Part shown: in pieces, positions 7,349-21,935 of the stretch
How the letters are laid out: each line of letters starts with the position of its first letter
Position numbering within the stretch: the first letter of the stretch is position 1
Source: Hyphococcus sp.
GTDB lineage: Bacteria; Pseudomonadota; Alphaproteobacteria; Caulobacterales; Parvularculaceae
Direction of reading: 5' to 3'
Assembly: GCA_028289605.1 (NCBI GenBank)
Contig: JANQON010000004.1
Coordinates: 1-64,000 of the forward strand
Length of the DNA: 64,000 nucleotides
Translations under genes and position numbers: made by a program
The notes under the pieces: model-generated
Databases searched by the model: none
What the model was told of the DNA's origin: nothing
Seen by the model: only the letters and a program-made list of their open reading frames with translations

Positions 7349-7370
7349 CTTGAGCGCCGATGCGCTCAAG
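7349..7370 (-). terminator. Hairpin at the end of the D-amino acid operon
   Basis: A perfect 9-bp stem, CTTGAGCGC and GCGCTCAAG, closes a 4-base loop six bases after the symporter stop codon. There is no U-tract, so it may be a weak terminator or a 3' end stabiliser. It marks the likely end of the long minus-strand operon. Confidence 0.5.
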
Positions 7371-7375
7371 ACCGC

Positions 7376-8620
7376 CTAAACCACAGGGCGCGCGTTGTAG
7401 GTTTCGGCGTCGAGCTCGTTCTCCCACTTGGCGACGGTTGTCGCCACCGCCAGGTCGCCGGTAACGTTCACCACCGTGCGCATCATGTCGAGAATTCTGT
7501 CGAAGGGGAGGATAAAGCCGACTACAATTGCTGTTTGCGCGCCGGACACCCCAATGGATTCCAGGACGGCCGCCAGCAGGAAAAGCGACGCCGACGGCAC
7601 CGACGCGGTGCCGATGGAGACAAGCGTCGTCGTTAAGCCGATGATGAGATAGTCGGAGAATGTCAGCGGCACCCCGAACGCCTGCGCCGCGAACAGCGCG
7701 ACAATGCCCACATAGAGCGCCGTTCCATCCATGTTGACCGTCGCGCCGAGGGGCAACACGGACGACCGTACCGGCGCGCCGATCCCGAGATTTTCATCGG
7801 CCGCCGCCATGGTCACCGGCAGGGTCGCGGCGCTCGACGAAGTGGAATAAGCGACAAGCTGCGGGTCGGCCGCGCCGCGAACGAACGGCATCACCGGCAA
7901 CGCCGCCAGAAAACGAATGAGCCCCCCGTGAACAATGATGATGTGAAGTGCGCAGCCCACGTAAACGGCGACCGCCAACGCGAATACGTTCAAGAGAGTT
8001 GCAGCGCCTTGCGTGCCCGCCACCCAGGCGATCAGCGCAAAGACGCCGATCGGCGCCAGTTCCATCACGAGAAAGGTGACTTTCAGCATCGCCTCGGCGC
8101 CGGCGTTAAACGCATCGCCCAGGATTTTCGCTTTTTCGCCGGCCAGCACAATACCGACGCCGAACAGAATGGCGAACACGATGATCGCCAGAATATTGCC
8201 CTCCGCCAGCGCCGCCACTGGGTTCAGGGGAATAATCGCATACAACCGCTCAAGCAGCGTCAGCGAGGGCCCGAGATCACGCGCTTCGGCGCCGGCGAGA
8301 TCGACGCCGGCGCCGGGCTGCAAAACCGCGCCCATCAAGAGCCCGATACAGATCGCCGCCGCCGTCGTGAAGAGATATAGACCGAACGCCCTAACGCCGA
8401 TGGAGCCCAGCCGCTTCGGATCGCCCATCGCGACAACGCCGGCCACCAGCGTCGTGAAAATCAACGGCACGACCAGCATCCGAATGAGCCGGACAAAAAG
8501 GTCGCCGATCCATCTAATGGAGGCAGCGCCCTCTCCCCAGATCAAGCCGACAATGACGCCGGCGATCAACGCGGCGAAAATCCGCTTCCAGAGTTTTATC
8601 GCGAACCACTTTTTTATCAT
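7376..8620 (-). CDS. Dicarboxylate/amino acid:cation symporter (DAACS family)
   Basis: A 414-residue inner membrane protein from the ATG at 8620 (MIKKWFAIKLW); AAAGGG lies upstream. It has the DAACS pattern: about eight hydrophobic segments, the RLIRMLVVPLIF segment, a serine-rich hairpin near mid-protein (YSTSSSAATLPVT) and the substrate/sodium-site helix with NMDGTALY. The family carries glutamate, aspartate, C4-dicarboxylates or small neutral amino acids with Na+ or H+. It is the last gene of the operon, 16 bases after the 80-residue gene. With a D-aminoacylase and D-amino acid dehydrogenase upstream, it most likely imports the released D-amino acid; that substrate is inferred. Confidence 0.88.
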   Translation of the reverse strand: MIKKWFAIKLWKRIFAALIAGVIVGLIWGEGAASIRWIGDLFVRLIRMLVVPLIFTTLVAGVVAMGDPKRLGSIGVRAFGLYLFTTAAAICIGLLMGAVLQPGAGVDLAGAEARDLGPSLTLLERLYAIIPLNPVAALAEGNILAIIVFAILFGVGIVLAGEKAKILGDAFNAGAEAMLKVTFLVMELAPIGVFALIAWVAGTQGAATLLNVFALAVAVYVGCALHIIIVHGGLIRFLAALPVMPFVRGAADPQLVAYSTSSSAATLPVTMAAADENLGIGAPVRSSVLPLGATVNMDGTALYVGIVALFAAQAFGVPLTFSDYLIIGLTTTLVSIGTASVPSASLFLLAAVLESIGVSGAQTAIVVGFILPFDRILDMMRTVVNVTGDLAVATTVAKWENELDAETYNARPVV

Positions 8621-8636
8621 TTGCGGCCCTTTGCGG

Positions 8637-8879
8637 TTAATCGGTTTGGTGGGGATGAACGGCGCTGACATCGCCCTCGTCGGACTGAGCGGCGCGCTCG
8701 CAGTATCGGGCTTTCATCGCCGCGAATTCCAAATAGGCTTCAATGTCATTGCACGCTAGCAGACGATCTAGATCGCGAAGCGCCAGAATCGCCAGCTCGG
8801 GTGAGCGGCGCCCGTCATCCGACTCGTTTTGGGAAGCGCTAAGCCAACAGGCTAAATTCCGGTATTTGCTGAAAACCAT
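8637..8879 (-). CDS. 80-residue hypothetical protein in the D-amino acid operon
   Basis: An 80-residue protein lying between the D-aminoacylase stop (13 bases before its start) and the symporter (16 bases after its stop). AAGGA with good spacing precedes the ATG, and codon use matches the flanking genes, so it is likely translated. There is no signal peptide. The middle (ELAILALRDLDRLLAC, then EAYLEFAAMKARYCERA) is predicted to be two amphipathic helices with three cysteines in the protein. No family is recognised. Its place inside a tight catabolic operon suggests an accessory or regulatory role. Confidence 0.6.
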   Translation of the reverse strand: MVFSKYRNLACWLSASQNESDDGRRSPELAILALRDLDRLLACNDIEAYLEFAAMKARYCERAAQSDEGDVSAVHPHQTD

Positions 8880-8891
8880 GATCCGTCCTTA

Positions 8892-10478
8892 CTATGGTTC
8901 GTCGCATTGTGCGCGCTTCAACGGCGCGCCTGCGGTTATCGGCGCGACGGTTTCGCCGTCGACTGCCAACGCGCCGTTGACAAACAGATAAACAACGCCT
9001 TCCGACATGCGACGGGGCTCCGCGAAGTCGGCTTTCTCGCCGTATGTTTCAGGATCAAAAATAACAATATCGGCGAAGAATCCTTCACGTATGTAGCCGC
9101 GTCCGCAAAGCTGAAAAACATCGGCGATGAAACCGGAACTGCGGCGTATGAATTCGCTCGGCGATAAAACGTCGCGCTCGACCACATAGCGACGATATTT
9201 TCGCGGGAAACTTCCAAATTTCCGAGGATGGCCGTCGGTGCCGTCCGAGCTTGTGGCCACCCACGGCCGTTTCATAAACGTTTCGATATCGCTCTCTTGC
9301 ATATTGAACGAGGCAACGCGCGCATCGCCCTCCAGCACGATCGCTGTTGCCGCGGCGACTGGCGTCTGGTCCCGTTCGAGCGCAATTTCTCGCAGCGTCC
9401 TGCCCACCAAGGCGTCATCTCCATCAACGATCAACAGCGCTTCGGCGCCGCCGCGTTTGCGGAGGTTCTTCTCCATTTCCGATTGCAGTCTCGATGCAAG
9501 CGCCGGATCGCGAAGCCGCGCGCGCATGTCGTCTGCGGAGCCCGCCTTGGCCCAGTTGGGAACGAGCGCATTCGAAACCCGTGTCCCTGACGCCGACCAC
9601 GGATATTGGTCGGCGCTAATGCGTTGCCCGCTGTCCTGCGCCGCCTCAATCAATTCGATCACATCTTTGCTTTGTCCCCAGACGTCTACGCCAAGCGCCT
9701 TAATGTGGGCGATATGGACCGGCGCGCCGCTCTTCCGTCCAATTTCCAGCGCCTCTTCAATCGACGCCAAGAGCCCGATGGAATAGGAACTCTCGTCGCG
9801 AATGTGGCTGTCGTAGACGCCGCCGTGTCGTGCGGCGACTTTCGACAATTCAATCAGCTCTTGGGTTTTCGCAAATGATCCCGGCGCATAGTAAAGCCCT
9901 GACGAAAGGCCCAGCGCGCCTTCCGACATCGCCTCACGGACCAGAGCGCGCATGCGATCGGGCTCCTGTTCCGTCGGCGCACGGTTCTCTCCGCCGATCA
10001 CTGACCTGCGGACGGTGTTGTGACCGACGAACAGCGCCGCATTCGTTCCGACGCCGTTCGCGGCGAGCGCCCGCAAAGTCGCCGCCGTTTCTGTCGGCCC
10101 CTCGCCGTCATTTCCGGCGAACACCGTCGTCACGCCCTGGGTCAGATAGTTGGCGTTGACGTTGTCGGCGTCGGAGAGGAGGTCCGCCAGCGCGTGGGTA
10201 TGTGGGTCAATAAAGCCAGGAGCGACAATCAGGCTTTGCGCGTCGAGCGTGGTCTCAGCGATGACGTTTTCTAGTTGTGCGTCTCCGACGAACACGATTT
10301 TATCGTCTCGTATGCCGATATCGAGTTCCGAGCCGACGTCGCCTTCCTCACCGGTAAATACAGTTCCGTTAGCAATCAGAAAGTCGACCGACAGACTGTG
10401 CGACGCTTCTTCTTTCGCACAGGCTGCGACGAGGATCGCAACGGCGAACATGTTCAGTCTTTTTGCATGCGCAATCAT
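8892..10478 (-). CDS. Lipoprotein N-acyl-D-amino-acid deacylase
   Basis: A 528-residue amidohydrolase. A lipobox (LVAAC, Cys20) makes it a periplasmic lipoprotein. Metal-site motifs are in order: DPHTHA (His93, His95), SHIRDES, HIAHIKA, and SSDGTDGHPR near the C-terminus, the pattern of D-aminoacylases. The family hydrolyses N-acyl-D-amino acids to the free D-amino acid plus a carboxylate. It starts four bases after the D-amino acid dehydrogenase stop, so the two are translationally linked. The lipid anchor is notable because characterised D-aminoacylases are usually soluble; here deacylation would occur in the periplasm, before import by the symporter. The exact acyl and amino acid specificity cannot be read from the sequence. 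Confidence 0.88.
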   Translation of the reverse strand: MIAHAKRLNMFAVAILVAACAKEEASHSLSVDFLIANGTVFTGEEGDVGSELDIGIRDDKIVFVGDAQLENVIAETTLDAQSLIVAPGFIDPHTHALADLLSDADNVNANYLTQGVTTVFAGNDGEGPTETAATLRALAANGVGTNAALFVGHNTVRRSVIGGENRAPTEQEPDRMRALVREAMSEGALGLSSGLYYAPGSFAKTQELIELSKVAARHGGVYDSHIRDESSYSIGLLASIEEALEIGRKSGAPVHIAHIKALGVDVWGQSKDVIELIEAAQDSGQRISADQYPWSASGTRVSNALVPNWAKAGSADDMRARLRDPALASRLQSEMEKNLRKRGGAEALLIVDGDDALVGRTLREIALERDQTPVAAATAIVLEGDARVASFNMQESDIETFMKRPWVATSSDGTDGHPRKFGSFPRKYRRYVVERDVLSPSEFIRRSSGFIADVFQLCGRGYIREGFFADIVIFDPETYGEKADFAEPRRMSEGVVYLFVNGALAVDGETVAPITAGAPLKRAQCDEP

Positions 10479-10482
10479 CGTC

Positions 10483-11727
10483 TTACGCCGCCTTCCGATC
10501 GAGGAGTGAATCGCGTTCGCCGAGGATCACGTCGTTTGCGATTTTTTCCGCACAGACCGCGGAAAGCGTCCAGCCGAACATGCCGTGCCCGATATTGAGG
10601 AACAGCCGATTCACTTTGGTTTCGCCGACAATCGGCAAGCTGTTTGGCGTTGACGGACGAACGCCGACCCATCTGGAAGATACATTTGAAAAATCGGCCG
10701 CACCGGGAAACGCCTCCGTCGCGCGACGCAGTAACAGATCGGTTCGCCGTTGGGCGACATCGGTTCGTTGCGCGCCGGCGTCTGCGAATCCCGCCACACG
10801 CAGGTTTTCGCCGATACGCGAGTACACCATTTTTCTCGCCAGATCGGTGATCGCAATGCTCGGCGCTCCCTCGGCCGCCGGCGCGGTAATGGAATACCCG
10901 CGGATGGGTTGAACAGGCGCAGCCACGCCCAAAGGACGGAGCAGACGCGGCGCATTCACGCCCATGCAAACGACAACTGCATCTGCGGCAACATCGCCGT
11001 CGTCGGCGGCAACGCCGTACACTTGGTTGTTGCGAGCCAGGATGGCGCGGACGGAAGTGTTCAGCAGAAAATCAACGCCGAATTGGTCGCGCGCCGCGGC
11101 GCCCAGGGAAAGGGCGAAGGTTCGCGCATCTCCAACGTCATCATTGGGGGCGTACAGCCCGCCCGCTATGGCCGAGCCCCGCCAGCAATTCAATGCAGGC
11201 TCCAACGCCAGGCAAGCCGATGTGTCCAGAGGGCGAAGCGCACGCCCCTTTTTGTACGCTTGCTCTGCGCGTGTCGCAGCCCTCTTGAAGTCGTCTTCAC
11301 TGTTGAACAGCACCAGCTTTCCCGCTTTTCGATGGGCAAACTGGACGCCCGCTTGGCGTATCACGCGCTTGAACGCCCCGTCGGAACGTTGCGCAAGTCG
11401 CGCCAAGGCTTCAGCATTCTGACGCGCGGGCCCCGGCGTGCAGTTAACGAGAAACCGGGCGCCCCAGTTGAGAAAGGCTGGATCGAAACTGAGGCCGATT
11501 TTGAAAGCCTCGTCTTTCCCGAGCAAATAGTCAGCCAGGTGACGCAGAACGCCCGGCGATCCCGTGGGAGAGGCGAAATCGTATGAAAGCTGTCCGCCAT
11601 TGGCGAAGCTCGCTTCGCCGGCGAGTTCGCTCCGCCGCTCCATAACGGTGACGTCGCATCCCCGCGACGCCAGCGCATATGCGGTCGTCACGCCGACCAC
11701 GCCCGCTCCGAGGACGACGACCCTCAT
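10483..11727 (-). CDS. dadA: D-amino acid dehydrogenase (DadA-like FAD oxidoreductase)
   Basis: A 414-residue DAO-family flavoprotein. The N-terminal GAGVVG with a following acidic residue binds FAD; ANGGQLS near residue 42 and the segment with FLNWGARFL are typical of DadA. The C-terminal region has GHGMFGWTLS, the second FAD contact. It oxidises D-amino acids to 2-oxo acids and ammonia, passing electrons to the respiratory chain from the inner face of the membrane. Length matches the family (about 415-430). It starts three bases after the M14 peptidase stop. The context, with a D-aminoacylase directly downstream, supports D-amino acid catabolism rather than glycine or sarcosine oxidation. 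Confidence 0.87.
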   Translation of the reverse strand: MRVVVLGAGVVGVTTAYALASRGCDVTVMERRSELAGEASFANGGQLSYDFASPTGSPGVLRHLADYLLGKDEAFKIGLSFDPAFLNWGARFLVNCTPGPARQNAEALARLAQRSDGAFKRVIRQAGVQFAHRKAGKLVLFNSEDDFKRAATRAEQAYKKGRALRPLDTSACLALEPALNCWRGSAIAGGLYAPNDDVGDARTFALSLGAAARDQFGVDFLLNTSVRAILARNNQVYGVAADDGDVAADAVVVCMGVNAPRLLRPLGVAAPVQPIRGYSITAPAAEGAPSIAITDLARKMVYSRIGENLRVAGFADAGAQRTDVAQRRTDLLLRRATEAFPGAADFSNVSSRWVGVRPSTPNSLPIVGETKVNRLFLNIGHGMFGWTLSAVCAEKIANDVILGERDSLLDRKAA

Positions 11728-11730
11728 TGC

Positions 11731-12933
11731 TTAGTCCGCTGGCGCCGGGCGAGCGCTGTCCTCCAGCGACGGATCGCTCGCCAGAAGCGTTTCCATCATC
11801 TCTTCGGCGAAAACAATCGCCGATGCGCGCACAAGACGCCGATCCGTCTGATCGCCCAACTCATAGGTGATGGCCGGCGCGCCGAACCGTCGGTGGATGT
11901 AGTTTTTCGACGTCGCCAATTCTGTGGTTTCGCGTTCGGCTCGTTCGAACTCAAATCCCTCGTCGAGACGTTCGCGGGCGCCGGCGATCCAAAGATCGGT
12001 AAATCTTGGAGGCGTTGTCGCAACGTTTTTGAACTGCGTGTAAAAGACATTCCGATTCGTCGAGTGGAAATCCAGCATAAGCCGAAGCTCGCTTCGCTCG
12101 TCATTGGCGATTTCATCAAGGATCTTCTTAACAGCCTGGGTCTCGGGCTGGGTGAACGGTCCCCAATCGCGGTTGAGGTCAACGCCGTTCACATTATGCC
12201 TCCAGTAGCCATGGGCGACGCCGTCAGGATTTAAGAGCGGGGCGGCGGTGATATGAAACCTCTGCCGAAAAGCGATCGCCAGCGGCGTATCGGCGAATAC
12301 TGTCTCCAGGAACGTCAGCATGGCGAATGCGCCGGTCAGCTCCGGCGGGTGTTGTCGTCCGACGAAAAGAACATGCTCTTTTTTGCCGTCGTCGTCTTCG
12401 GGCGCCGACAGGACGGCTGTCAGCGCCCGCCCCTCGACCGATTCCCCGATTACCGTGGTTTCAAACTGAGCTTCTTCGATAAGGGCGTCGATCCATTTCT
12501 GATAGGCGCCGGTTAGCAGCAGTTCCTGGCCGGCGACAATAAATGGAGAGGACTCCGTGGCTAACCGGAGGATGACTTTCTTTCCCTTGCGACGTTCTTT
12601 GACACGGTCAGGATCGACAAGCGTCCAGCGTGTGGCGTCTTCGCTGCGTTTGGGTCGGTAGCGATGCGCGGCGTCTGAATAGCGCATAACGATTTTGAGA
12701 TCGCCGGGCTGTTTTGGCGTCACGCGAAATGCGTACCACGGGCTCGGATTGATCGGCAGGTTCTCAGGGTCGATGCGAATGTGAAAACTTTTGCGCTTGG
12801 CGACGCATTCCGACATGCGCGCGCCCTCAAACTCCGCATCAAGTTTCGCCAGGTCGTTTTCGCATGCCTCAGCGGCGCCCAACATCGCCGAGAAAACGGC
12901 CAGAAACGCCAGGGACGTCAGTTTAATATTCAT
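11731..12933 (-). CDS. Exported M14-family zinc carboxypeptidase
   Basis: A 400-residue protein from the ATG at 12933, where a clean signal peptide begins (cut near AEA-CEND). An N-terminal beta-rich domain (about 45-135) precedes the peptidase domain, as in bacterial cytosolic-carboxypeptidase-like M14 proteins. Zinc ligands HPPE (His195, Glu198) and His290 (DFHST), the NPDG and LNRDW substrate motifs, and a likely catalytic Glu358 in TYELG are all visible. M14 enzymes remove C-terminal residues, and one branch cuts gamma-D-glutamyl-diaminopimelate bonds in murein peptides. In this operon it would trim imported peptides in the periplasm before deacylation. Three bases separate it from dadA. 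Confidence 0.87.
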   Translation of the reverse strand: MNIKLTSLAFLAVFSAMLGAAEACENDLAKLDAEFEGARMSECVAKRKSFHIRIDPENLPINPSPWYAFRVTPKQPGDLKIVMRYSDAAHRYRPKRSEDATRWTLVDPDRVKERRKGKKVILRLATESSPFIVAGQELLLTGAYQKWIDALIEEAQFETTVIGESVEGRALTAVLSAPEDDDGKKEHVLFVGRQHPPELTGAFAMLTFLETVFADTPLAIAFRQRFHITAAPLLNPDGVAHGYWRHNVNGVDLNRDWGPFTQPETQAVKKILDEIANDERSELRLMLDFHSTNRNVFYTQFKNVATTPPRFTDLWIAGARERLDEGFEFERAERETTELATSKNYIHRRFGAPAITYELGDQTDRRLVRASAIVFAEEMMETLLASDPSLEDSARPAPAD

Positions 12934-13016
12934 CGTCAGCCTGCGAAATATCGTGTGGGGAATTGGGCGACGCCGGACGACATAATACGCAATCGACCGG
13001 CGCCAATGGGAGTAGT

Positions 13017-16000
13017 CTAAAACGCTTTTCGTATGGATCCGTACCAATATCGGCCTCGGCTCGAATGCAGCTCTTCGTAGAATCCGGTTGCGAACTCATC
13101 GGCGAGCGGCGGCTTTTCGTCTGTGATGTTGCGCACGCCGAAACGAAGCCGCGTGTTGGATGCAAGCCCGGCGTCTTCAATCGTGTATTGCAGGTAGAGA
13201 TTGACCGACATCCATTCGTCGACGCGGAAAATTTCTCCATTGGGCCCGGTGACCGAGGTGTCGGTGACGGGACCGATATACCGGCCAAAGGCGCCGGCGC
13301 CTACGGGCCCGTACCGCCATGTGAGCCCGGCGGTGCCGCGCCACTCCGGACGACCGTTTTGCTCAACGAGGGATTCTTGGCCCGGAATGTCGACCTCATC
13401 GCTAATGGCCCCTGATGCGATCGCGGCCAGTAGATCTGCTCCGGCCGCTGACGGATCCTGGAAGAAATCGAGAAGGTGGGCGGCGTTGGCCGAGAAACTA
13501 AAATCACCGAAGCCAGTATCGAAGTCGTAGTGAAGGCCGAAATCCAAGCCCGACGCTTCACGCGGATTTAAGTTGACGTAGTCGTCGGTAACTTCGAGAA
13601 TTTCGCCCGCCGGCGTCAGCCCTGCGGCGGTGAAGAGCGCAATCGTCGCTGCGTCGGGCGCCGCGCGAACGACATTCGGATTCTCGCTTCCCTGCACGCG
13701 CAACAGGTAATCCAGTGAAATCTGGTTCTGATCCCCAAAAATGCCGACGACGTCGGTCTGTTTGATTTTCCAGTAATCAACAGTAACTGTCAGGCCGGAA
13801 CCTTCCGGTTGAAATACGGCTCCGAGCGAGAAGTTCTGATTATTCTCAGGCTGGAGATTGGGGCCGCCCGAGCGCACGCTTTCAACCGAATTGCCGTCGC
13901 AGTCGCCAGTGTCGAACGCGGTCATGTTTGCGCGCGCCGTTGCTTCGCACAAGATCCAGTCTTCGCGGCCGGTGTTGACCCGACGGATGCCGCTGGCGTT
14001 GATTTGTTCCAGGTTCGGCGCCCGAAAGCCGCGGGCGTAGGCGCCGCGGATTTGCAGCCAGGAAACGGGGTACCAAGATACGGCGACTTTCGGTTTCGCG
14101 ACCTCGCCCACGTCCGAATAGCTTTCGAAACGGGCGGCGAGCTGAAGGTCCAGCCTTTGCACGAGGGGAATGCCCATGTCCGGGCTCACGACGGGCACCG
14201 CCGTTTCGACAAAGGCGGAATAGACCGAGCGGGCGCCGTCCGTATCCGGCGTCGGGCTGGTTCCCATCACATCGCTTAGATTGGTGACGCCTGTCACGAC
14301 GTCCGTGAACGTAATCGTGCCGTCGAGACGGTCGTCGCGGTCATCAAGAAACGTCTCCCGTCGCGCTTCGACGCCAATGGCGACGCCGACGCCGCCCGCG
14401 GGAAACTCGAACAGGTCCGCATTGGAAAACTTGATGTCGCCCAGCAGGATCGACGTCTTGCTCCGCCGCGACACGTCAACCATGAAGCTGTCGATGGTCG
14501 CCGGCGAGTTAAAGCCCATATTCGGCGCATTGGTGTCCGTGACATCGCCGCCGATAAACGGGTTATAGGCGTCTGGCGACGACAACGCCAACGCCTGTTG
14601 GAAAAGCGTGTTGCTCACACGGTTCGTGACGCTTTCCGTTGTCGCCTGGGAATACAGCAATGCGCTGTCGATGTCCCAGCCGTTTCCAATATCGCCGCGA
14701 ATGCCGCCAAGAATGCGGAAACTGTCATTGTCCACATTGATTTCGCGCTGCCCGACATCGAGCGGACGCAGGTCGCGAATCTGAAGGTCCACGCCGAAAG
14801 GGTTGTAAAAATTCGACGCGGGCACCACGACGCGGTTGCTGGAAAGCATTTGCGCAGTTTCGCGCCGCCGGAAGAAGCTGGAACGATAGTAGGAAAACTC
14901 TCCGAACAGCTCCAGATCGTTGTTCAGGTCGTGATTGATGAACAAAAAGCCGTTCCCGCGTTTGGTATCGCCGATAAGGTCACGGTAGCGCGCGCGGTCC
15001 AGGCGCAGCGCGGTGTCGATCGACCCGCCGTCGTCGGCGCAGACGCCGCCCGGCAGCGCCACAAGGCATCCTGTAAACGTGTCCGGCTGAATATGAAAAT
15101 CATCGTCGCCGATCGCCGGAATGGTCCCTGCCAGCGATCGAAATTCGCCCCAGGCGGTTTGCGTCGACAAGTTCCGCAATTGCGTATCGCCTTCAAAAGG
15201 CGTTCCAACGAAGAAATCGCGCAGGTCTTCCGTTGACGAATTGAGGAGATCGGTCGCCGGCATGCCGTTTCGATTGAGGAAATTGCCGAAGAAAGAAATA
15301 TTGGTTCGGCCGTCGTTAAAAGTGTGGCCTGCTTCGATCGTAGCGGTCAGTTCGTCCAGGGACGTTCCTTCCGACGTCCCGTATTGAACGGTCCCTGTCA
15401 GCCCTTCGAAATCGTCCTTCAGAACCGTATTGATCACGCCCGCCACCGCGTCGGTGCCGTAGAGCGCCGCGGCGCCGTCCCGCAGCACTTCAACCCGTGA
15501 GATCCCGGTAACCGGAAGCGCATTGGAATTCACGGAATTCACCGGAACGAGGTTTTCAACCTGCGTGCCGGGATGCAGGACGAGGCGGCGGCCGTTCAAG
15601 AGAACAAGCGTGTTGCCGGTGCCGATGGCGCGCAGGTTGATGGAAGACACGTCGCCTTGTGCGCCGTTGACGCCGGTAAACCCGACGCCGTTGAAGGTCG
15701 CCTGACCGATTTGCGGAATGGACGCAAGCAACTCGTCGCCGCTTACCGCACCGGTAAGCGCAATTTCTTCTTCCCCCAGAACCGTCACCGGGAGCGCCCC
15801 GGCGATATCCGCGCCCTTAATCTGCGAGCCCACGACGACGATGACATCCTGGTTTTCGCTCGCGGGCGTTGAATCCTGGGCAATCGCCGCCGTCGCCGCC
15901 AGCGATGAAATCGCCGATGTAAGAAAAAAGCCTGATCGTTTGTTCCGCATGGGTTCGTTCCCTCCCGACGTGTTTTCAACTTTGCGTTGCGATACGATGA

Positions 16001-16322
16001 TCGCGCCGCTTTCCGTCAGGCCGCCCTGCAGGCTCGTACCCTCGAACATTTCGTCGAGAGCCTGTTGAAGCGAATAGGATCCCTTCAACGACTTCGTATC
16101 CACCGCCTTGACATCATCGGTTTGGAAAAGAACGGAACGCCGGCTTGAGCGAGCCAGCAGCTTCACCGCGTCTTCAGCGTTTTGCGCCGCTATGTCGAAT
16201 ACCTGCTGATCGTCCGCCGGCGCCTGCGCAAAAGCGCTGGAACCGAGAAGCAATCCGTAGATAACCGCCAACCACACTACGCACCGAAGCGCCAACCGTA
16301 TTCTTCCCAACCCTGTTGTCAT
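13017..16322 (-). CDS. TonB-dependent receptor with N-terminal STN signalling domain
   Basis: An outer membrane receptor of 1101 residues from the ATG at 16322, where a signal peptide begins (ends SSAFA). An STN domain follows (VFDIAAQNAEDAVKLLA to GAIIVSQRK), the module that contacts a FecR-type anti-sigma factor. Next comes a second, apparently complete signal peptide (MRNKRSGFF to AAIAQ), then the plug (LVLLNGRR, RDGAAALYGTDAVAGVIN) and a 22-strand-type barrel ending in Phe. The second signal peptide has its own strong ribosome binding site (see 15948-15966), so this may be an STN gene fused in frame to a complete receptor gene. It lies behind sigma and fecR and 83 bases before the peptidase, pointing to regulated uptake of a peptide substrate. 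Confidence 0.9.
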   Translation of the reverse strand: MTTGLGRIRLALRCVVWLAVIYGLLLGSSAFAQAPADDQQVFDIAAQNAEDAVKLLARSSRRSVLFQTDDVKAVDTKSLKGSYSLQQALDEMFEGTSLQGGLTESGAIIVSQRKVENTSGGNEPMRNKRSGFFLTSAISSLAATAAIAQDSTPASENQDVIVVVGSQIKGADIAGALPVTVLGEEEIALTGAVSGDELLASIPQIGQATFNGVGFTGVNGAQGDVSSINLRAIGTGNTLVLLNGRRLVLHPGTQVENLVPVNSVNSNALPVTGISRVEVLRDGAAALYGTDAVAGVINTVLKDDFEGLTGTVQYGTSEGTSLDELTATIEAGHTFNDGRTNISFFGNFLNRNGMPATDLLNSSTEDLRDFFVGTPFEGDTQLRNLSTQTAWGEFRSLAGTIPAIGDDDFHIQPDTFTGCLVALPGGVCADDGGSIDTALRLDRARYRDLIGDTKRGNGFLFINHDLNNDLELFGEFSYYRSSFFRRRETAQMLSSNRVVVPASNFYNPFGVDLQIRDLRPLDVGQREINVDNDSFRILGGIRGDIGNGWDIDSALLYSQATTESVTNRVSNTLFQQALALSSPDAYNPFIGGDVTDTNAPNMGFNSPATIDSFMVDVSRRSKTSILLGDIKFSNADLFEFPAGGVGVAIGVEARRETFLDDRDDRLDGTITFTDVVTGVTNLSDVMGTSPTPDTDGARSVYSAFVETAVPVVSPDMGIPLVQRLDLQLAARFESYSDVGEVAKPKVAVSWYPVSWLQIRGAYARGFRAPNLEQINASGIRRVNTGREDWILCEATARANMTAFDTGDCDGNSVESVRSGGPNLQPENNQNFSLGAVFQPEGSGLTVTVDYWKIKQTDVVGIFGDQNQISLDYLLRVQGSENPNVVRAAPDAATIALFTAAGLTPAGEILEVTDDYVNLNPREASGLDFGLHYDFDTGFGDFSFSANAAHLLDFFQDPSAAGADLLAAIASGAISDEVDIPGQESLVEQNGRPEWRGTAGLTWRYGPVGAGAFGRYIGPVTDTSVTGPNGEIFRVDEWMSVNLYLQYTIEDAGLASNTRLRFGVRNITDEKPPLADEFATGFYEELHSSRGRYWYGSIRKAF
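15948..15966 (-). promoter_or_regulatory. Internal ribosome binding site and start inside the TonB receptor gene
   Basis: GGGAGGG (15960-15966 on the complementary strand) stands nine bases before an in-frame ATG at 15950. That ATG begins a typical signal peptide. Initiation here would give a receptor of about 977 residues that lacks the STN domain. The site is stronger than the one visible at the upstream start. Confidence 0.6.
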
Positions 16323-16489
16323 GGCGTTCGTCGTCGCTTTGCGAGACGGCCATGTTAACCCGTCCGTGCGAGGAGAGAAAACCGCCAGTGGCGAACCGCA
16401 AAAAGTTTTTGGGAGGAGAATCTGTTGCAATTTTACGTCACCGCATCGCAACAAGGCGGCGGCTCAGGCCAAGCCGCCGCTGCTTCAGC

Positions 16490-17572
16490 TCATTCCGCTT
16501 TGGCCATTCTGAGCTGATACTTATCGTCACTCTCGCGTTCAACGACAACGCCGAGCCCCTCAAGGGCGCCAAGCAGTTGCTCAACATCGCCGGTGCGGAA
16601 GATTCCGCCGAACTTAAGTTCTTTCAGGTCGGGATCGACAATCTCGATGGATACCGGATTATGCCGCGTCAACTCCTCGATCACGTCCTCCAGCGGGGTC
16701 TCGGAAAACTCCAGAAAGCCGTCCGTCCACGACAGCTTGCGCTGTAGATCGCGCTCGGTGAGCACAGGAATATCCTGCGCCGCTGAAGCGGTCGCAATGC
16801 TCGCCAGCTCGCTCGAGGTTAGCGCTTGGCCGGCCTTAACAATCACGCGTTGCGCCGGCGGTTCTTCAACGACACGCTCCGTTGCGTCTTGCGGCGCCGT
16901 GAGATCTATGGACGAAGGCAGTTTGGAAAAGGCGACGACGCCTTCGACGACGGCGAGTTCGGTAACGGCTTCTCGCAGTCTCACCACGAACGAGGTTCCC
17001 ACCGCCTCAGCGATCGCCGTGTCCGAGTAAACCACAAAGGGTCGCTTAGGATTGGACGCGACTTCGAAGAGGGCTTCGCCGTGGATAAGCCGAACGCGAC
17101 GTTCTTCGTCATTGAAATCGACTTCAATCTGGCTATCGGTATTGAGCGATACGTCAGTGCCGTCCGCAAGGGTGATGGTGTGGTACTCGCCGACAGCCGT
17201 CTTGTAGATTTCAGGTCTTGCATTGGCGCTGAACAGCAGTGCGGAAACAATAACGCCGCCGGCAATGAATAAAGCGGCCGCCGAGGCGAGAATCGGCGCC
17301 AGAAAGCGCCCGCGTTTGCCGGAGGTTCGCAACGCATGCCCGACGCCGGCGTTTTTCTCGAGCGCCGGGGCAAGCTCGGTCAGAACCCCAAGCTGGCCTG
17401 AAAGATTAGCGATGTTGCGAATCTCGCGCCGGTGCGCCGGGCTCCGGCCCATCCACTCCCGCAGCGCCGCCAAATCGGAAGCAGATAGATTGCCGGATTC
17501 AAGCTGAGCAATCCAGGCGCACGCCTCGGACACTATTTCTTTGCTTGTTTCCATGGTCGACTGGCTATTCAT
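16490..17572 (-). CDS. FecR-family anti-sigma factor
   Basis: About 360 residues from the ATG at 17572; an upstream TTG at 17581 is also possible. The N-terminal part (AWIAQLESG, LREWMGRSPAHRREI) is the cytoplasmic sigma-binding FecR N-domain. One membrane segment follows near residue 105. The periplasmic FecR domain has VGEYHTITLADGTDVSLNTDS and GEALFEVA. The end (PLEDVIEELTRHNPVSIEI) resembles an STN-like module. It should hold the ECF sigma factor inactive and release it when the receptor reports ligand. It begins shortly after the sigma stop codon and precedes the receptor gene. Confidence 0.9.
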   Translation of the reverse strand: MNSQSTMETSKEIVSEACAWIAQLESGNLSASDLAALREWMGRSPAHRREIRNIANLSGQLGVLTELAPALEKNAGVGHALRTSGKRGRFLAPILASAAALFIAGGVIVSALLFSANARPEIYKTAVGEYHTITLADGTDVSLNTDSQIEVDFNDEERRVRLIHGEALFEVASNPKRPFVVYSDTAIAEAVGTSFVVRLREAVTELAVVEGVVAFSKLPSSIDLTAPQDATERVVEEPPAQRVIVKAGQALTSSELASIATASAAQDIPVLTERDLQRKLSWTDGFLEFSETPLEDVIEELTRHNPVSIEIVDPDLKELKFGGIFRTGDVEQLLGALEGLGVVVERESDDKYQLRMAKAE

Positions 17573-17590
17573 CAAACGCAACTTTTCACT

Positions 17591-18181
17591 TTACCGCCGT
17601 TCGGCGTCCAACCCTAAGACATTGGTTTCAGGTTGATCCGCATTCTCAGCTGTTTGCTCCCGTATCATTTCTTCCCGGCATCGCTTTAATCCAAGCGCCA
17701 CGTGTTTCTCGACCGTGCTCAATGCAATGTCGAGTTTGTCGGCGATTTCTTTGTGCGACGCTCCGTAAACATGCTTCAGCAGGAACACTCTTTGACATTG
17801 CGGCGGCAGGGTCGCCACCGCTGCGCCAAACACTTGCATCCTGGCTCTTGCGTCGACTGCGTCATCGACGGCCGGCTCATCTGATACGTACGAATCCGGG
17901 TCAAAATCATCTAGTAGGCTTGTCGTCATTTTTGCGCGCCGTTCGAGCTCGGCGCGCGCTACGTTCTTTGCAATTCCAACCAGAAACCGACGAGGTTCGT
18001 TGATTTCCGTACGTTTTTCCGCCTCCAAGGCGCGCAGGATGGTCTCCTGGGTCAGGTCGGCGATATCAATCTGGGACAACCGAAATCGGCGCAAGACGCT
18101 CGCGATCAGGCCCTTGTTGGCCTGAAAAACGGTGAAAATCCCTGCCTTGGGAGCCTTGCTCACGCGCGTCCGCCCGTCCAA
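17591..18181 (-). CDS. FecI-like ECF sigma factor
   Basis: A 196-residue sigma-70 family protein of the ECF type. Region 2 is seen in IADLTQETILRALEA and RRFLVGIAKNVARAE; region 4 in LPPQCQRVFLLKHVYGASHKEIA followed by LSTVEKHV. The start is a TTG at 18181 or a GTG at 18163; GGGCGG precedes the latter. It heads the minus-strand operon that includes FecR, the STN receptor and the D-amino acid genes, so it probably drives its own operon when the receptor binds its peptide. A terminator from the upstream receptor gene insulates it. Confidence 0.9.
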   Translation of the reverse strand: MDGRTRVSKAPKAGIFTVFQANKGLIASVLRRFRLSQIDIADLTQETILRALEAEKRTEINEPRRFLVGIAKNVARAELERRAKMTTSLLDDFDPDSYVSDEPAVDDAVDARARMQVFGAAVATLPPQCQRVFLLKHVYGASHKEIADKLDIALSTVEKHVALGLKRCREEMIREQTAENADQPETNVLGLDAERR

Positions 18182-18311
18182 CGTCTCTTAGTGCGAGCCC
18201 AACTTACTGCGTAACGCGGTCAATCCGCAAATTCGGCGGATCGGACGAACAGGCGCACAATCTGCGCACTGAGGGTTGCGCCCTCACCTTCCGCCCCGCG
18301 CAGCGGCGGCC

Positions 18312-18348
18312 AAAAAAAGGCGGGGCGCCGAAGCACCCCGCCCTTTTT
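18312..18348 (-). terminator. Rho-independent terminator of the second TonB receptor gene
   Basis: On the minus strand a GC-rich stem (GGCGGGGTGC with GCGCCCCGCC) is capped by TTCG and followed by seven T residues. It lies 23 bases after the receptor stop codon. An A-tract on the other side would allow weak bidirectional use. It isolates the sigma-fecR operon downstream. Confidence 0.85.
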
Positions 18349-18370
18349 CCGTTTACAAGCGCCTTTGACG

Positions 18371-21300
18371 CTAGAAACTCGCCGTCACGTTGACGAATGC
18401 GCGCCGTCCAAGCAAGTCGTAACCGACGCCAATCGGCACGGACCGGGCGTTCAGTGACGCGCCTACGTCTTCGTCCACTTGGGGCGGCGCTTTGTCCAAC
18501 ACGTTGTTGACGCCGACCCTGACGGTGAAGACGTCCCGCCGCCAGGCGAGAGAGGCGTCGTGATACACCGTATGGGGAACAGAGTAACACCGTTCGAAAT
18601 CGATGTTGTTGATCGGATCAAAACAGTTCAGCGGACGATCGTCGAGCTCATCGCGCTGCTTGCCGATATGGCGGGCTTGCCAGAACAGCGTGAAGTCCTC
18701 CCAGTTCACACGCGCCGTCGCCGTCGAACGCCATTTCGGTTGACCGATTTCGCCGACGTCTTCGTCGAATACCGCCGGCGCTCCCGGAAGGATCGTCAAA
18801 TCACTGATCTCCCGCGACCACGTCGTGACCGTATCGAGGGATATGTTGATGTCTTCTCCGCCAATCCGGAAATCCTGATTGTAGGAGAGGTTCATGTCGA
18901 CGCCGGACGCGTTATCTTCGGCGATATTGAACGGCGTCGCGTCAATTTCCGAGAGGAAATTGTCATTTGGATCGCGCAAGCGCCGCGTACAGAAAGGATC
19001 GTCCGGGAAATTCGATGAATCGTAGCATGAATCGACCAGGAATTGCGCCGTGGGCGTTAGCACCGACCCTTTGATTTTGATGTCCCAATAGGTAGCGCTT
19101 AACCGCAGATCAAATGCGTCCGTAAACGGCTGCTCAAAAACGATCCCGCCGGAAAACGCGAATGAGGTTTCCGGATCAAGGTTGAGATTACCCGCCCGGA
19201 AGACTTCGGCGGAGCCGGGCGTGACGCCCAAGCCAAGGGCGAACGGATCCAAGCCCTCAGCTTGACAGTTGGTGATCACGAGCTGGCTGCCGCGCAAGCG
19301 CGGGTCGTTGTCCCCGAAACCGTCGCCGTCATTGTCCGGACCGGGGTCGTAGGTGTCGGTGACGCCGTCGTTGTCGGTATCGACCTGCGCGAGCCCCGGT
19401 ACAACGCATGGGTCTGTAACGTTCTGGAATCCCGATTGCCCTTCGAGGAACAATTCGCGCAGACCCGGCGCCCGGAAAGACGAACCAACCGTCGCCTTGA
19501 GCGTCAGAAAATCAACTGGGCTGTAGCTCATCTTGCCGGAATAGGTGAAGTTCGATCCATAGAACTCGTGGTTCGTAAACCGTCCTGCGCCTTCCAGTTC
19601 GAGGTTCTGAACAAGCGGCGCGTCCTTCAACACCGGAATAAAGATCTCGCCGAACAGCTCCCAAAGGTGCACGTCGCCATTGGAGGGACGGTCGAGGAAA
19701 AAGCCCGACAACAGACCACGCGCGGCCGTATCGTCGGCTTTTGTTTCCAGAGCCGTTTCCCGCGCTTCACCGCCGAGCAGCAGTTGCATTTCGCCGCCGG
19801 GCAAGTCGAGGATTGGTCCCGTGAAAAAGCCGCCGATGATGGCCTCATCCACGAATGTATCAATCGTCCGCACACCACGCAGATAGTTGACAACGCGCGG
19901 ATCGTTGGCCCCGGTGATCCGCGGCAAAGAGCCGTCCAGCGGCGTTAGCCCAGGATCAAAGACGTTGAAGGGAATGCACTGCTCCAGAGTTTCCGTGGAC
20001 GCCAGCGGCGCGGTCGGGTTTGGTATGAGGTCCGCGCAGACAATGTTCCCATTTGCATCCGTCGTATGTTCAAGCGACTGCAGCAGTCTGTCTTCGCGGA
20101 CGCCGGTACGCTCTGAGAAGCCTTGAGAGCGCGTATAGCCCGCATAGACTTCGTATTCCCAGTCACGAAGCTTGGCGAACTCGAGGTCGCCTTTGACGCC
20201 GCCAAACATGCGATATTGGGTCAGTTCGGTTTCGTTCGTATCCTGCCATGGTTGAAACGGCCGGAACGTGAAATTCGCCGTCTGGCCAAATGCCGTGAAC
20301 GGACTAAAGAGATTGTTCGTGGTTACCTGAATATCCAGCGTTTCCGCCTGACTGCTTTCCTGACGCGACTGGCGATTGCTCAGATTAAATTCGAGGAATG
20401 CTTCACTTCCTTCAATCCAGTCACTCAAGTCGTATTTTGCTGTCGCAAAAACGTTCAGCCGCTGGAATTCCGGTATGAGCTGGTCGCCTTGGCGGATCAG
20501 GGTCGCCGGTCCGTCCAGATTGTCAAAGTCGCCGTCCCACAGCACGAAACCCGGCGTGTCGATTCCGGCCCCGTCAAGCACCGGATCAACCTGTCCCGGG
20601 CGGGCGATGAGAACGGATCCAAGCGGAAACGCCAGGAATTGTTGCGACCGCGTGCCGTCCCCAAACTGACGGCGAAGGGTCTCATTTACGCCGTCGCCGT
20701 CAAGGTCCGACGGCACAAAGTCAACCGGACCGGCGAGGCTTCGCGTACCGCCGTTTGGCAACAAGAACGCGTCGGGACCGAAATCCGTTGCGAACATCCA
20801 GTCGCGCTCGTCGCCATTCAATTCCTCGGAGTGCACATATTCCGCCGAGAATACGAAACTGCCTCGTTCGCCTGTATCGCCCACCAGGATGGAGTAGCGT
20901 TGCTCCGTGCCGGCGGAACTCTCAAACGGCGCCGTCCGGAATGCATCGAGCTGAATGCCTTCAAATTCGTCGCGCAGAATTACGTTGACCACGCCGGCCA
21001 CGGCGTCTGAACCGTAAACCGAAGAAGCGCCGTCAAGCAGGATGTCAATCCGCTGCACCATTGACGACGGCAGAATGGATGTGTCCGGAAATGATGGAGC
21101 GCCTTCGATACCTGCCGGCGAAACCCGTCGACCGTTAATCAACAGCAGCGTTCGGTCAGCCCCAAGCCCGCGTAATGAAATTGCCGATCCCCCCGGGCCA
21201 GCATTTGACACAAAGTTCGCATTGAATTGTTGGTCAAGTTGGACGCCCTGAACAACTGTAGTTGTCTGTAGTACGTCCTGGATGTCGATAAGACCGAGAT

Positions 21301-21580
21301 CGGCGATCGTCTCGCCGTCGACAGTTTGCAGAGGCGATGTCGACGTAAAGGAGTTCTTGCGAATTCGGGAGCCGGTTACGACAACCGTATCTTCTTGGTC
21401 GTCGGCAAAGTCGTCGTCTGTAGCGTCGTCAATCTCCTCGACCTGAGCCGCTGCGACAGCGACCGCGGCGACTTCCGGCGCCTGGGCGGCGAAAGCGTTG
21501 GTGGTCAACAAAAGCGCGCCGGCAATTGATGTCGAAGACAGCAACAGCAAACGGTTTTCGCGCGTCGTTTTACTAAGCAT
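18371..21580 (-). CDS. TonB-dependent receptor (large, with Ca-type DxDxDG repeats)
   Basis: A 1069-residue outer membrane receptor from the ATG at 21580, preceded by AGGGG. Signal peptide to about residue 32 (NAFAAQ), then an acidic linker, TonB-box region (DTVVVTGSRI) and plug (SISLRGLGADRTLLLINGRRV; LDGASSVYGSDAVAGVVN). No STN domain is present, so it is a transport-only type. In an extracellular loop DTDNDGVTDTYDPG and DNDGDGFGDND form thrombospondin-3-like calcium motifs. The C-terminus ends in Phe (VNVTASF). It lies upstream of the sigma-fecR operon but is separated by a terminator. Size and loop style resemble receptors for peptides or glycans; the ligand is unknown. Confidence 0.9.
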   Translation of the reverse strand: MLSKTTRENRLLLLSSTSIAGALLLTTNAFAAQAPEVAAVAVAAAQVEEIDDATDDDFADDQEDTVVVTGSRIRKNSFTSTSPLQTVDGETIADLGLIDIQDVLQTTTVVQGVQLDQQFNANFVSNAGPGGSAISLRGLGADRTLLLINGRRVSPAGIEGAPSFPDTSILPSSMVQRIDILLDGASSVYGSDAVAGVVNVILRDEFEGIQLDAFRTAPFESSAGTEQRYSILVGDTGERGSFVFSAEYVHSEELNGDERDWMFATDFGPDAFLLPNGGTRSLAGPVDFVPSDLDGDGVNETLRRQFGDGTRSQQFLAFPLGSVLIARPGQVDPVLDGAGIDTPGFVLWDGDFDNLDGPATLIRQGDQLIPEFQRLNVFATAKYDLSDWIEGSEAFLEFNLSNRQSRQESSQAETLDIQVTTNNLFSPFTAFGQTANFTFRPFQPWQDTNETELTQYRMFGGVKGDLEFAKLRDWEYEVYAGYTRSQGFSERTGVREDRLLQSLEHTTDANGNIVCADLIPNPTAPLASTETLEQCIPFNVFDPGLTPLDGSLPRITGANDPRVVNYLRGVRTIDTFVDEAIIGGFFTGPILDLPGGEMQLLLGGEARETALETKADDTAARGLLSGFFLDRPSNGDVHLWELFGEIFIPVLKDAPLVQNLELEGAGRFTNHEFYGSNFTYSGKMSYSPVDFLTLKATVGSSFRAPGLRELFLEGQSGFQNVTDPCVVPGLAQVDTDNDGVTDTYDPGPDNDGDGFGDNDPRLRGSQLVITNCQAEGLDPFALGLGVTPGSAEVFRAGNLNLDPETSFAFSGGIVFEQPFTDAFDLRLSATYWDIKIKGSVLTPTAQFLVDSCYDSSNFPDDPFCTRRLRDPNDNFLSEIDATPFNIAEDNASGVDMNLSYNQDFRIGGEDINISLDTVTTWSREISDLTILPGAPAVFDEDVGEIGQPKWRSTATARVNWEDFTLFWQARHIGKQRDELDDRPLNCFDPINNIDFERCYSVPHTVYHDASLAWRRDVFTVRVGVNNVLDKAPPQVDEDVGASLNARSVPIGVGYDLLGRRAFVNVTASF

Positions 21581-21935
21581 TGGAGCCCCTTTCAGTGTCC
21601 GGTGCGCCTTGCGTGACCCATGAGAATTCGGCGAACACGGCAGTGATCCGTGCGACGCCGGCGCAAGGCTTCGTTGACGTAGGACAGTGGGAGCGCGCCG
21701 GGTCCTCAGTGCTTGGGCGGGATCAGGCGCTCGCAAAAGTCGAATGTGCTATTTTTGTCACGCTTTCGACTACGCTCCGGCCGGCGCACTGCATCGGTCG
21801 CGTCCGCGGCGACGTTCGGAAGACTCAAAATTTAGAATACGGCCTTCGGCGAGGCGCTTTATGCCAGCGGCGAAGCATCGCCGTCTCAATACAGTGCGGC
21901 GAGAGCAGCATGTAAGCAAAGCGAATGGCGCAAAA
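21581..21935. other. Intergenic region upstream of the second TonB receptor
   Basis: These 355 bases hold the promoter of the receptor gene on the minus strand and the 3' end of the OmpA-like transcript. I found no convincing -35/-10 pair, terminator or open frame on either strand with good codon use. A 6-bp inverted pair GTCGAA/TTCGAC brackets about 20 bases near 21740-21772 and may be chance. Confidence 0.35.

Follow-up and report, generated by a model that had tools for sequence, protein, structure and literature searches.

We analysed the first 64,000 nucleotides (the window) of contig JANQON010000004.1 from Hyphococcus sp. (assembly GCA_028289605.1; 19 contigs, 4.29 Mb), where eight minus-strand open reading frames (ORFs) run from position 18181 down to 7376 and, according to ORF calls combined with Pfam and NCBIfam searches, include genes for an extracytoplasmic function (ECF) sigma factor, a FecR-type sensor, a TonB-dependent receptor, an M14 carboxypeptidase, a DadA-like dehydrogenase, a D-aminoacylase-like deacylase and an SDF symporter (Table 1). 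An initial annotation of this DNA had proposed that these genes form a self-regulated operon for scavenging peptides that contain D-amino acids. The content and strand of the set were confirmed and, taken in order from the sigma factor gene to the symporter gene, the intergenic gaps measure 18, 167, 83, 3, 4, 12 and 16 bases, in keeping with the spacing of 3–17 bases described for the last five genes. We adopted ATG start codons at 17572 (FecR), 16322 (receptor), 12933 (M14) and 8620 (symporter), the last chosen for its agreement with the related locus L034, within an ORF that is open from 8671.

Table 1 Features of the locus, in order along the minus strand
Feature	Positions	Strand	Basis or remark
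Intrinsic terminator behind upstream gene, 5′ border	18310..18352	-	-32.1 kcal/mol; z -5.85; T7 tail
ECF sigma factor, FecI type	17591..18181	-	TTG start at 18181, or in-frame GTG near 18163
FecR-type anti-sigma/sensor	16490..17572	-	Pfam FecR 3.4e-22, DUF4880, FecR_C
22-nt non-coding conserved block, candidate regulatory site	16342..16363	-	Alignment of fecR-receptor gaps
TonB-dependent receptor, 1101 aa	13017..16322	-	Pfam TonB_dep_Rec 3.3e-30, Plug 9e-15, STN 1.6e-5 (below gathering)
M14 metallo-carboxypeptidase, 400 aa, signal-peptide-like N-terminus	11731..12933	-	Pfam Peptidase_M14 2e-15
FAD-dependent D-amino acid dehydrogenase, DadA-like, 414 aa	10483..11727	-	NCBIfam NF001933, Pfam DAO
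D-aminoacylase / N-acyl-D-Glu deacylase-like protein, 528 aa, lipobox	8892..10478	-	Fold and residues; Asp124 in place of metal Cys
80-aa ORF, doubtful gene	8637..8879	-	No Pfam family, no relatives
SDF/DAACS symporter, 414 aa	7376..8620	-	Pfam SDF 1.2e-115; acidic amino acid type predicted from binding residues
Hairpin directly past symporter stop	7349..7370	-	z -2.25; without T-run

Both borders drawn by the initial annotation correspond to folds: the terminator it placed at 18312–18348 is a strong one that belongs behind the upstream gene, and the hairpin past the symporter gene folds without a T-run following it. A generic terminator scan, which returned 20 sites against a shuffle mean of 21.7 and missed the hairpin at 18310–18352, was not used. 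The 80-aa ORF matched nothing below an E-value of 0.05 except itself in 62 genomes of the family Parvularculaceae, and it is missing from the closest relative, L034, where the deacylase and symporter genes lie 16 bases apart; on both grounds we regard it as doubtful, and it may not be a gene.

Matches to the M14 protein with at least 55% identity occur in seven of the 62 family genomes, including the window’s own (one, in G001, has internal stops). At an E-value of 1e-30 they were found in 44 of 299 genomes of the order, and a 24-member M14 profile, applied at 1e-40, detected the protein in seven of 385 genomes of the class and 14 of 398 genomes of the phylum, with seven of these 14 belonging to one family outside the class (f191) that we take to be gammaproteobacterial. 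The neighbourhoods of 60 further loci (numbered L; genomes are numbered G) were examined, so that our census covers 61 loci, all picked by M14 match and mutually related; L041, which holds just a weak paralog (24%), was excluded, whilst L074 and L164 represent one genome (G156), as do L072 and L118 (G288). Within the census limit of 9.5 kb, a receptor gene accompanies the M14 gene in 54 of the 61 loci. The initial annotation would have been undermined by catabolic genes unlinked to the receptor in relatives; for the M14 gene, linkage is the rule. Because it is conserved in relatives, this linkage goes beyond chance, and the locus is a real, conserved functional unit.

Other genes recur less often around the pair. 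The census counted FecR in 16 loci, FecI in 8, LysR in 18 and TetR in 10, together with DadA in 11, the deacylase in 14, SDF in 12, DASS transporters in 12, a lyase in 10, PGA_cap in 7, gamma-glutamyltransferase in 5 and GltS in 3; the PGA_cap gene of L147 and the DgcN-DgcA genes of L164 fall outside the limit or the locus cut. Co-occurrence as envisaged by the initial annotation is partial, with DadA, deacylase and SDF genes jointly present in just 10 of 61 loci (the window, L034, L065, L066, L068–L072 and L137), two of which carry a shortened gene (DadA in L034 and a deacylase fragment in L069). Among 40 genomes bearing the M14 gene, 13 of the 15 deacylases with at least 49% identity lie in the M14 locus; the remaining two are in G686, on the same contig at a distance of 25 kb, and in G937, on another contig next to another receptor gene. 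The search gave 21 matches in all, six of which (33–42% identity; three in G967 and others in G020, G031 and G984) lie off the M14 locus, and the 40-genome set leaves out the genomes of L101–L117 unless shared, along with three of four in one family (G473, G568, G644). Scavenging of D-amino-acid peptides thus stands as the general theme of one unit, which we narrow below to D-glutamate.

The loci fall into four types: type A has LysR, receptor, DadA, M14, deacylase, SDF and sometimes PGA_cap; type B has PGA_cap, receptor, M14 and a second large M14; type C has receptor, a protein without Pfam match, DASS, TetR, a fumarase-superfamily lyase and M14; and type D has FecR (in some loci with FecI), receptor and M14. 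The window combines D with A, and L137 carries A and C side by side. FecI/FecR genes occur in seven of the eight loci of the window’s family (the window and L034–L039), the eighth, L040, being of type C. Since the receptor-M14 pair is conserved across types, it is, on this comparison, the core of the locus, with regulators (FecI/FecR, LysR, TetR) swapped between lineages. FecI/FecR control, as first proposed, finds no support as a general rule: of the ten loci that have DadA, deacylase and SDF genes, just the window and L034 show it and the remaining eight have LysR, and L035 combines it with the deacylase alone. Type C, perhaps a sister system, was seen in L040, L067, L080, L081, L083, L084, L105 (without the lyase), L114–L116 and L137 (with LysR and no TetR); the lyase N-terminus is lipobox-like in L067, L080, L081 and L083 and signal-like in L084, L114, L115 and L137.

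In the M14 protein, the HxxE pair (H195, E198), the Asn-Arg pair (N254, R255), a further His (H290) and the catalytic Glu (E358) are present in 52 of 52 members, and Arg245 in 51. Lysine 343 is likewise invariant (52/52), whereas all 21 scorable paralogs have C, N, T or A at that position and none has Lys (one of 22 is gapped there). These counts were made without the M14 proteins of L039, L040, L067, L078, L103, L106, L110, L117 and L142, where the frame was unpicked or interrupted, or where the match was too weak or covered too little. Fifteen residues before the catalytic Glu, K343 would be the counterpart of residue 255 of carboxypeptidase A, the residue that sets side-chain specificity. 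A basic residue at this predicted specificity position suggests that the M14 enzyme prefers acidic C-terminal residues. The structural model (pLDDT, the predicted local distance difference test, 89) has 4b6z and CCP5 as its nearest structures, the CCP5 match being a structure solved with Glu analogues. Like the CCP/M14D-type carboxypeptidases that were its top structural and profile matches (4b6z, 4a37 and CCP5 8v3p), the window’s protein has an N-terminal domain followed by an M14 catalytic domain; unlike them, it has a signal-peptide-like N-terminus, a DFHST motif and the invariant K343. Motif and lysine are also missing from common M14 paralogs.

The deacylase, described in the initial annotation as an N-acyl-D-amino-acid deacylase lipoprotein, does have a lipobox-like N-terminus (LVAAC) and a D-aminoacylase fold. 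Its metal-binding HxH, His and His (H93, H95, H225, H258) and catalytic D412 are conserved in 10 of 10 aligned sequences, and it keeps Lys, Tyr and Arg at the positions that bind the alpha-carboxylate; it scores 189.1 bits against NCBIfam NF006560, below the cut-off of 340. D-aminoacylase 1rjp/1m7j is the best solved match by sequence. One study (PMC12017989) describes this enzyme as suited to hydrophobic D-amino acids, the metal ligands as strictly conserved across the known groups, and Arg295 as conferring D-Glu specificity in the N-acyl-D-glutamate deacylase BbDam (3gip), where it binds the gamma-carboxylate. Fold, His/Asp metal ligands and alpha-carboxylate residues are shared with BbDam and 1m7j; the lipobox, an unalignable specificity loop and Asp124 in place of Cys set the window’s protein apart. 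The distant homolog in L165 has the usual Cys, and those in L167 and L169 did not show the motif; in L165 (7084–16253, G967), DgcA and DgcN genes lie about 6 kb from this D-aminoacylase-like gene, away from the M14 locus.

The DadA-like protein reaches 380.2 bits against NF001933 (cut-off 383) and matches Pfam DAO; raised dadA expression has been reported to accompany growth on D-glutamate (PMC6131576). The symporter aligns over most of its length to the aspartate transporter 9bgz, with the common motif DMxRTxxNVTGD, and D395, R398 and N402 are invariant in 10 of 10 sequences, including a second SDF subfamily of 31–34% identity. D395 and R398 presumably bind the amino group and the side-chain carboxylate, as in GltPh. 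From these kept binding residues, the symporter is predicted to be of the acidic amino acid type.

Next to the receptor gene, the sigma factor and FecR genes lie where the initial annotation placed its FecI/FecR/STN trio. The FecI-type protein matches Pfam Sigma70_r2/r4_2 and the NCBIfam ECF superfamily TIGR02937 (77 bits; cut-off 42.9), scores under the cut-offs of the FecI equivalog models and has homologs of 62–87% identity in six Parvularculaceae loci. The STN match of the receptor is weak (25.0 bits against a gathering threshold of 28.4) but falls within an N-terminal extension that five relatives also have. In the receptors of the window (13017–16322), L034, L035, L036, L037 and L038, a signal-peptide-like stretch after the STN region aligns with the signal peptides of receptors without STN, as if an STN module had been joined to the start of an intact receptor precursor, leaving a fusion scar.

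A 22-nt block in the gap between the fecR and receptor genes is nearly identical in six of six aligned gaps of the window’s family (L039 was not aligned); it has a single exact copy in the window and in the genome, with the next copies at three mismatches. The region before fecI in these six loci showed no comparable block, with two of 243 columns invariant. Because a block is kept before the receptor gene and none before fecI, a dedicated control site is more likely to lie at the former position than at the latter. The operon may regulate itself.

Relatives carry, beside the pair, genes that point to D-glutamate. In L148, the receptor-M14 pair lies beside GltS, DgcN and DgcA, each above its NCBIfam cut-off, and L147 has the same Pfam families; in both, the D-Glu genes are on the strand opposite the receptor. 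G156 (L074/L164), from the taxonomic order to which the window belongs, holds M14, receptor, deacylase, a second M14, LysR, SDF, DgcA and DgcN within about 13 kb and on both strands, with DgcA at 427.9 bits (cut-off 400) and DgcN at 436 bits against a cut-off of 480, its start being lost at a contig end. DgcN-DgcA thus adjoin the locus in two distant families, as neighbours on other strands or in other units and not as part of one operon, and in L164/L074 they stand beside the SDF gene. Across the 40 genomes, a DgcN-family gene was present in none of the 11 with DadA in the locus and in 11 of the 29 others (Fisher one-sided 0.015, with relatedness ignored and the test chosen after seeing the data). 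Binomial figures were set aside because they take no account of how the genomes are related. The window’s genome (G000) has no match to PF07755 (DUF1611/DgcN).

Further partners concern the bond to be cut. In L079 and L082, a gamma-glutamyltransferase gene overlaps the end of the M14 gene by 4 bases, as the deacylase gene does in L065, L066, L070, L071 and L072, and in the otherwise alike neighbourhoods of L147 and L148 the M14 gene is followed by the deacylase and the transferase, respectively (the latter after a 762-base gap). Two unrelated enzymes at one place suggest a shared type of bond as their target, the one that joins gamma-glutamyl to D-Glu. PGA_cap was found in six of 28 genomes and lies in this locus in five of those six, the sixth being the window’s genome, where it is unlinked; it also occurs in loci L143, L147 and L148.

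From families, gene order, conserved residues and linkage, and partner genes established with the tools, we infer substrate, stereochemistry, enzyme location and signalling as follows. D-glutamate occurs in peptidoglycan and in poly-gamma-glutamate. We favour, with confidence falling just short of an even chance, an operon for the TonB-dependent use of gamma-linked D-glutamyl oligomers that are probably pieces of poly-gamma-glutamate. Ligand binding to the receptor with its STN-like domain would signal through FecR to the ECF sigma factor and raise transcription from a site immediately ahead of the receptor gene. The glutamyl oligomer would pass the outer membrane through the receptor, the exported M14 enzyme would trim C-terminal acidic residues and the lipid-anchored deacylase would split the amide left between D-Glu and the gamma-glutamyl (or other acyl) group; free Glu would then be taken up by the symporter and D-Glu turned into 2-oxoglutarate by DadA inside the cell. 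D-glutamate is the most likely end product, and the gene neighbourhoods seen in relatives agree better with a gamma-glutamyl polymer than with acylated D-residues in general.

A bolder version, which we hold more tentatively, is that this is the first Gram-negative polyglutamate utilisation locus, built on a receptor and an acidic-specific M14 enzyme, in which the Asp-ligand deacylase replaces gamma-glutamyltransferase on gamma-Glu-D-Glu and either DadA or DgcN-DgcA disposes of D-Glu; type C would represent a sister system that handles a different acidic substrate and ends in an exported lyase and a dicarboxylate transporter.

Several observations weigh against the polyglutamate interpretation. 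The window’s locus has no PGA_cap, gamma-glutamyltransferase or DgcN gene, and G000 has one PGA_cap gene and three for gamma-glutamyltransferase, all on other contigs. PGA_cap is poorly known in function and unspecific, occurring in 78 of 398 phylum genomes (69 above cut-off); of the 14 phylum genomes with the M14 gene, five have it and three have it in the locus. Similarly, the 28 genomes hold 56 gamma-glutamyltransferase genes, just three of which lie at or close to the locus. The deacylase is missing from 47 of 61 loci and DadA from 50, and the DadA gene of L034 (11204–11863) reads as a single open frame of 220 aa with some 192 middle codons missing, through either a deletion or an assembly error. 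Type C loci have a lyase and DASS in their place, and several acidic substrates may therefore be handled by the M14 family. Equating K343 with residue 255 depends on a count along the sequence and on the numbering of carboxypeptidase A. In the deacylase, the metal Cys is replaced by Asp124 in 10 of 10 aligned sequences and also in L137, L143, L147 and L166, and the equivalent of BbDam Arg295 was not placed, as the loop is unalignable and nearby R300, N308 and K311 are variable. For these last two reasons it is not a standard family member, although it may work like a D-aminoacylase.

The main rival, on muropeptides as already named in the initial annotation, holds that muropeptides or free stem peptides are imported, that the M14 enzyme cuts gamma-D-Glu from diaminopimelate and the deacylase L-Ala from D-Glu, and that the symporter imports D-Glu for DadA to oxidise (along with D-Ala). 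It matches the window’s own catabolic genes as well as the polyglutamate reading does, N-acyl-D-Glu deacylases accept L-Xaa-D-Glu dipeptides, and a Beta-lactamase2-family gene in L068 (3945–4976, between SDF and the second M14) has a homolog in L035 (11437–12450). DgcA-like proteins also score near or above the L-Ala-D/L-Glu epimerase cut-off of 343 bits (318 in L148; 350.7 in L164, a further point against polyglutamate), but the DgcA model outscores the epimerase model in both cases and DgcA is paired with DgcN. Since the gamma-glutamyltransferase and PGA_cap of relatives have no clear role on an L-Ala-capped peptide, and no amidase, LD-carboxypeptidase or amino-sugar gene was found among 30 Pfam-scanned proteins (most neighbour genes being unscanned), we hold this rival to be about half as likely as the polyglutamate reading.

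Import of other gamma-glutamyl compounds, such as folate-type polyglutamate or gamma-glutamyl dipeptides, with D-Glu as just one product, would suit the gamma-glutamyltransferase genes in five of 61 loci and the structural match of the M14 protein to CCP5, a deglutamylase; we think it improbable, given that DgcN-DgcA, and DadA with a D-aminoacylase-like enzyme, indicate D-Glu over L-Glu and that PGA_cap is linked to the locus. Least probable of all is general scavenging of N-acyl-D-amino acids or lipopeptides, an option raised in the initial annotation too, for which the closeness of the deacylase to 1rjp/1m7j and the usually broad substrate range of DadA-type enzymes speak, but against which stand transporter and M14 residues indicating acidic substrates and the D-Glu partners of relatives. 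A lasso-peptide-type island was also considered and set aside, with no search aimed at a precursor or cyclase.

Known systems offer further points of comparison. The DgcN-DgcA pathway of D-glutamate catabolism, reportedly described by Yu et al. in 2023, disposes of D-Glu, and both its genes adjoin the locus in L147, L148 and L164; the window’s genome differs in having no DgcN-family gene and DadA in the locus, and the pathway is said to involve neither receptor nor peptidase. As in FecI-FecR-FecA, an ECF sigma factor, FecR and a receptor (here with a weak STN match) are clustered in the window, but here the set precedes genes for peptide and amino acid catabolism, and FecR occurs in just 16 of 61 loci. 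PghP, the poly-gamma-glutamate hydrolase of a Bacillus phage, is described as a zinc metallopeptidase related to carboxypeptidase A (PMC4497714); it acts on the kind of polymer proposed here, the likeness drawn being one of description, and involves no TonB receptor. Among the matches listed in the open-licence literature, none named a Gram-negative TonB import system for such peptides. Systems that pair a TonB receptor with catabolic genes are known in general; what is new to us is the assigned substrate. If correct, this assignment would provide a genetic marker by which D-glutamyl peptide use could be recognised in two classes of the phylum, give a receptor-peptidase family a function and reveal new enzymes for the trimming of glutamyl chains. 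D-amino acids count among slow-turning marine organic matter (PMC12363236).

Three minor observations remain. A second M14 protein of about 860–920 aa is encoded near the pair in L068, L073, L074, L075 and L076. The receptor-M14 pair is also present in L138–L141, from small genomes (1.3–1.4 Mb) of one family of the class. Directly upstream of the locus, a 1121-codon ORF (18371–21736) ends before the terminator; it resembles the receptor weakly (28%) and may encode a separate one.

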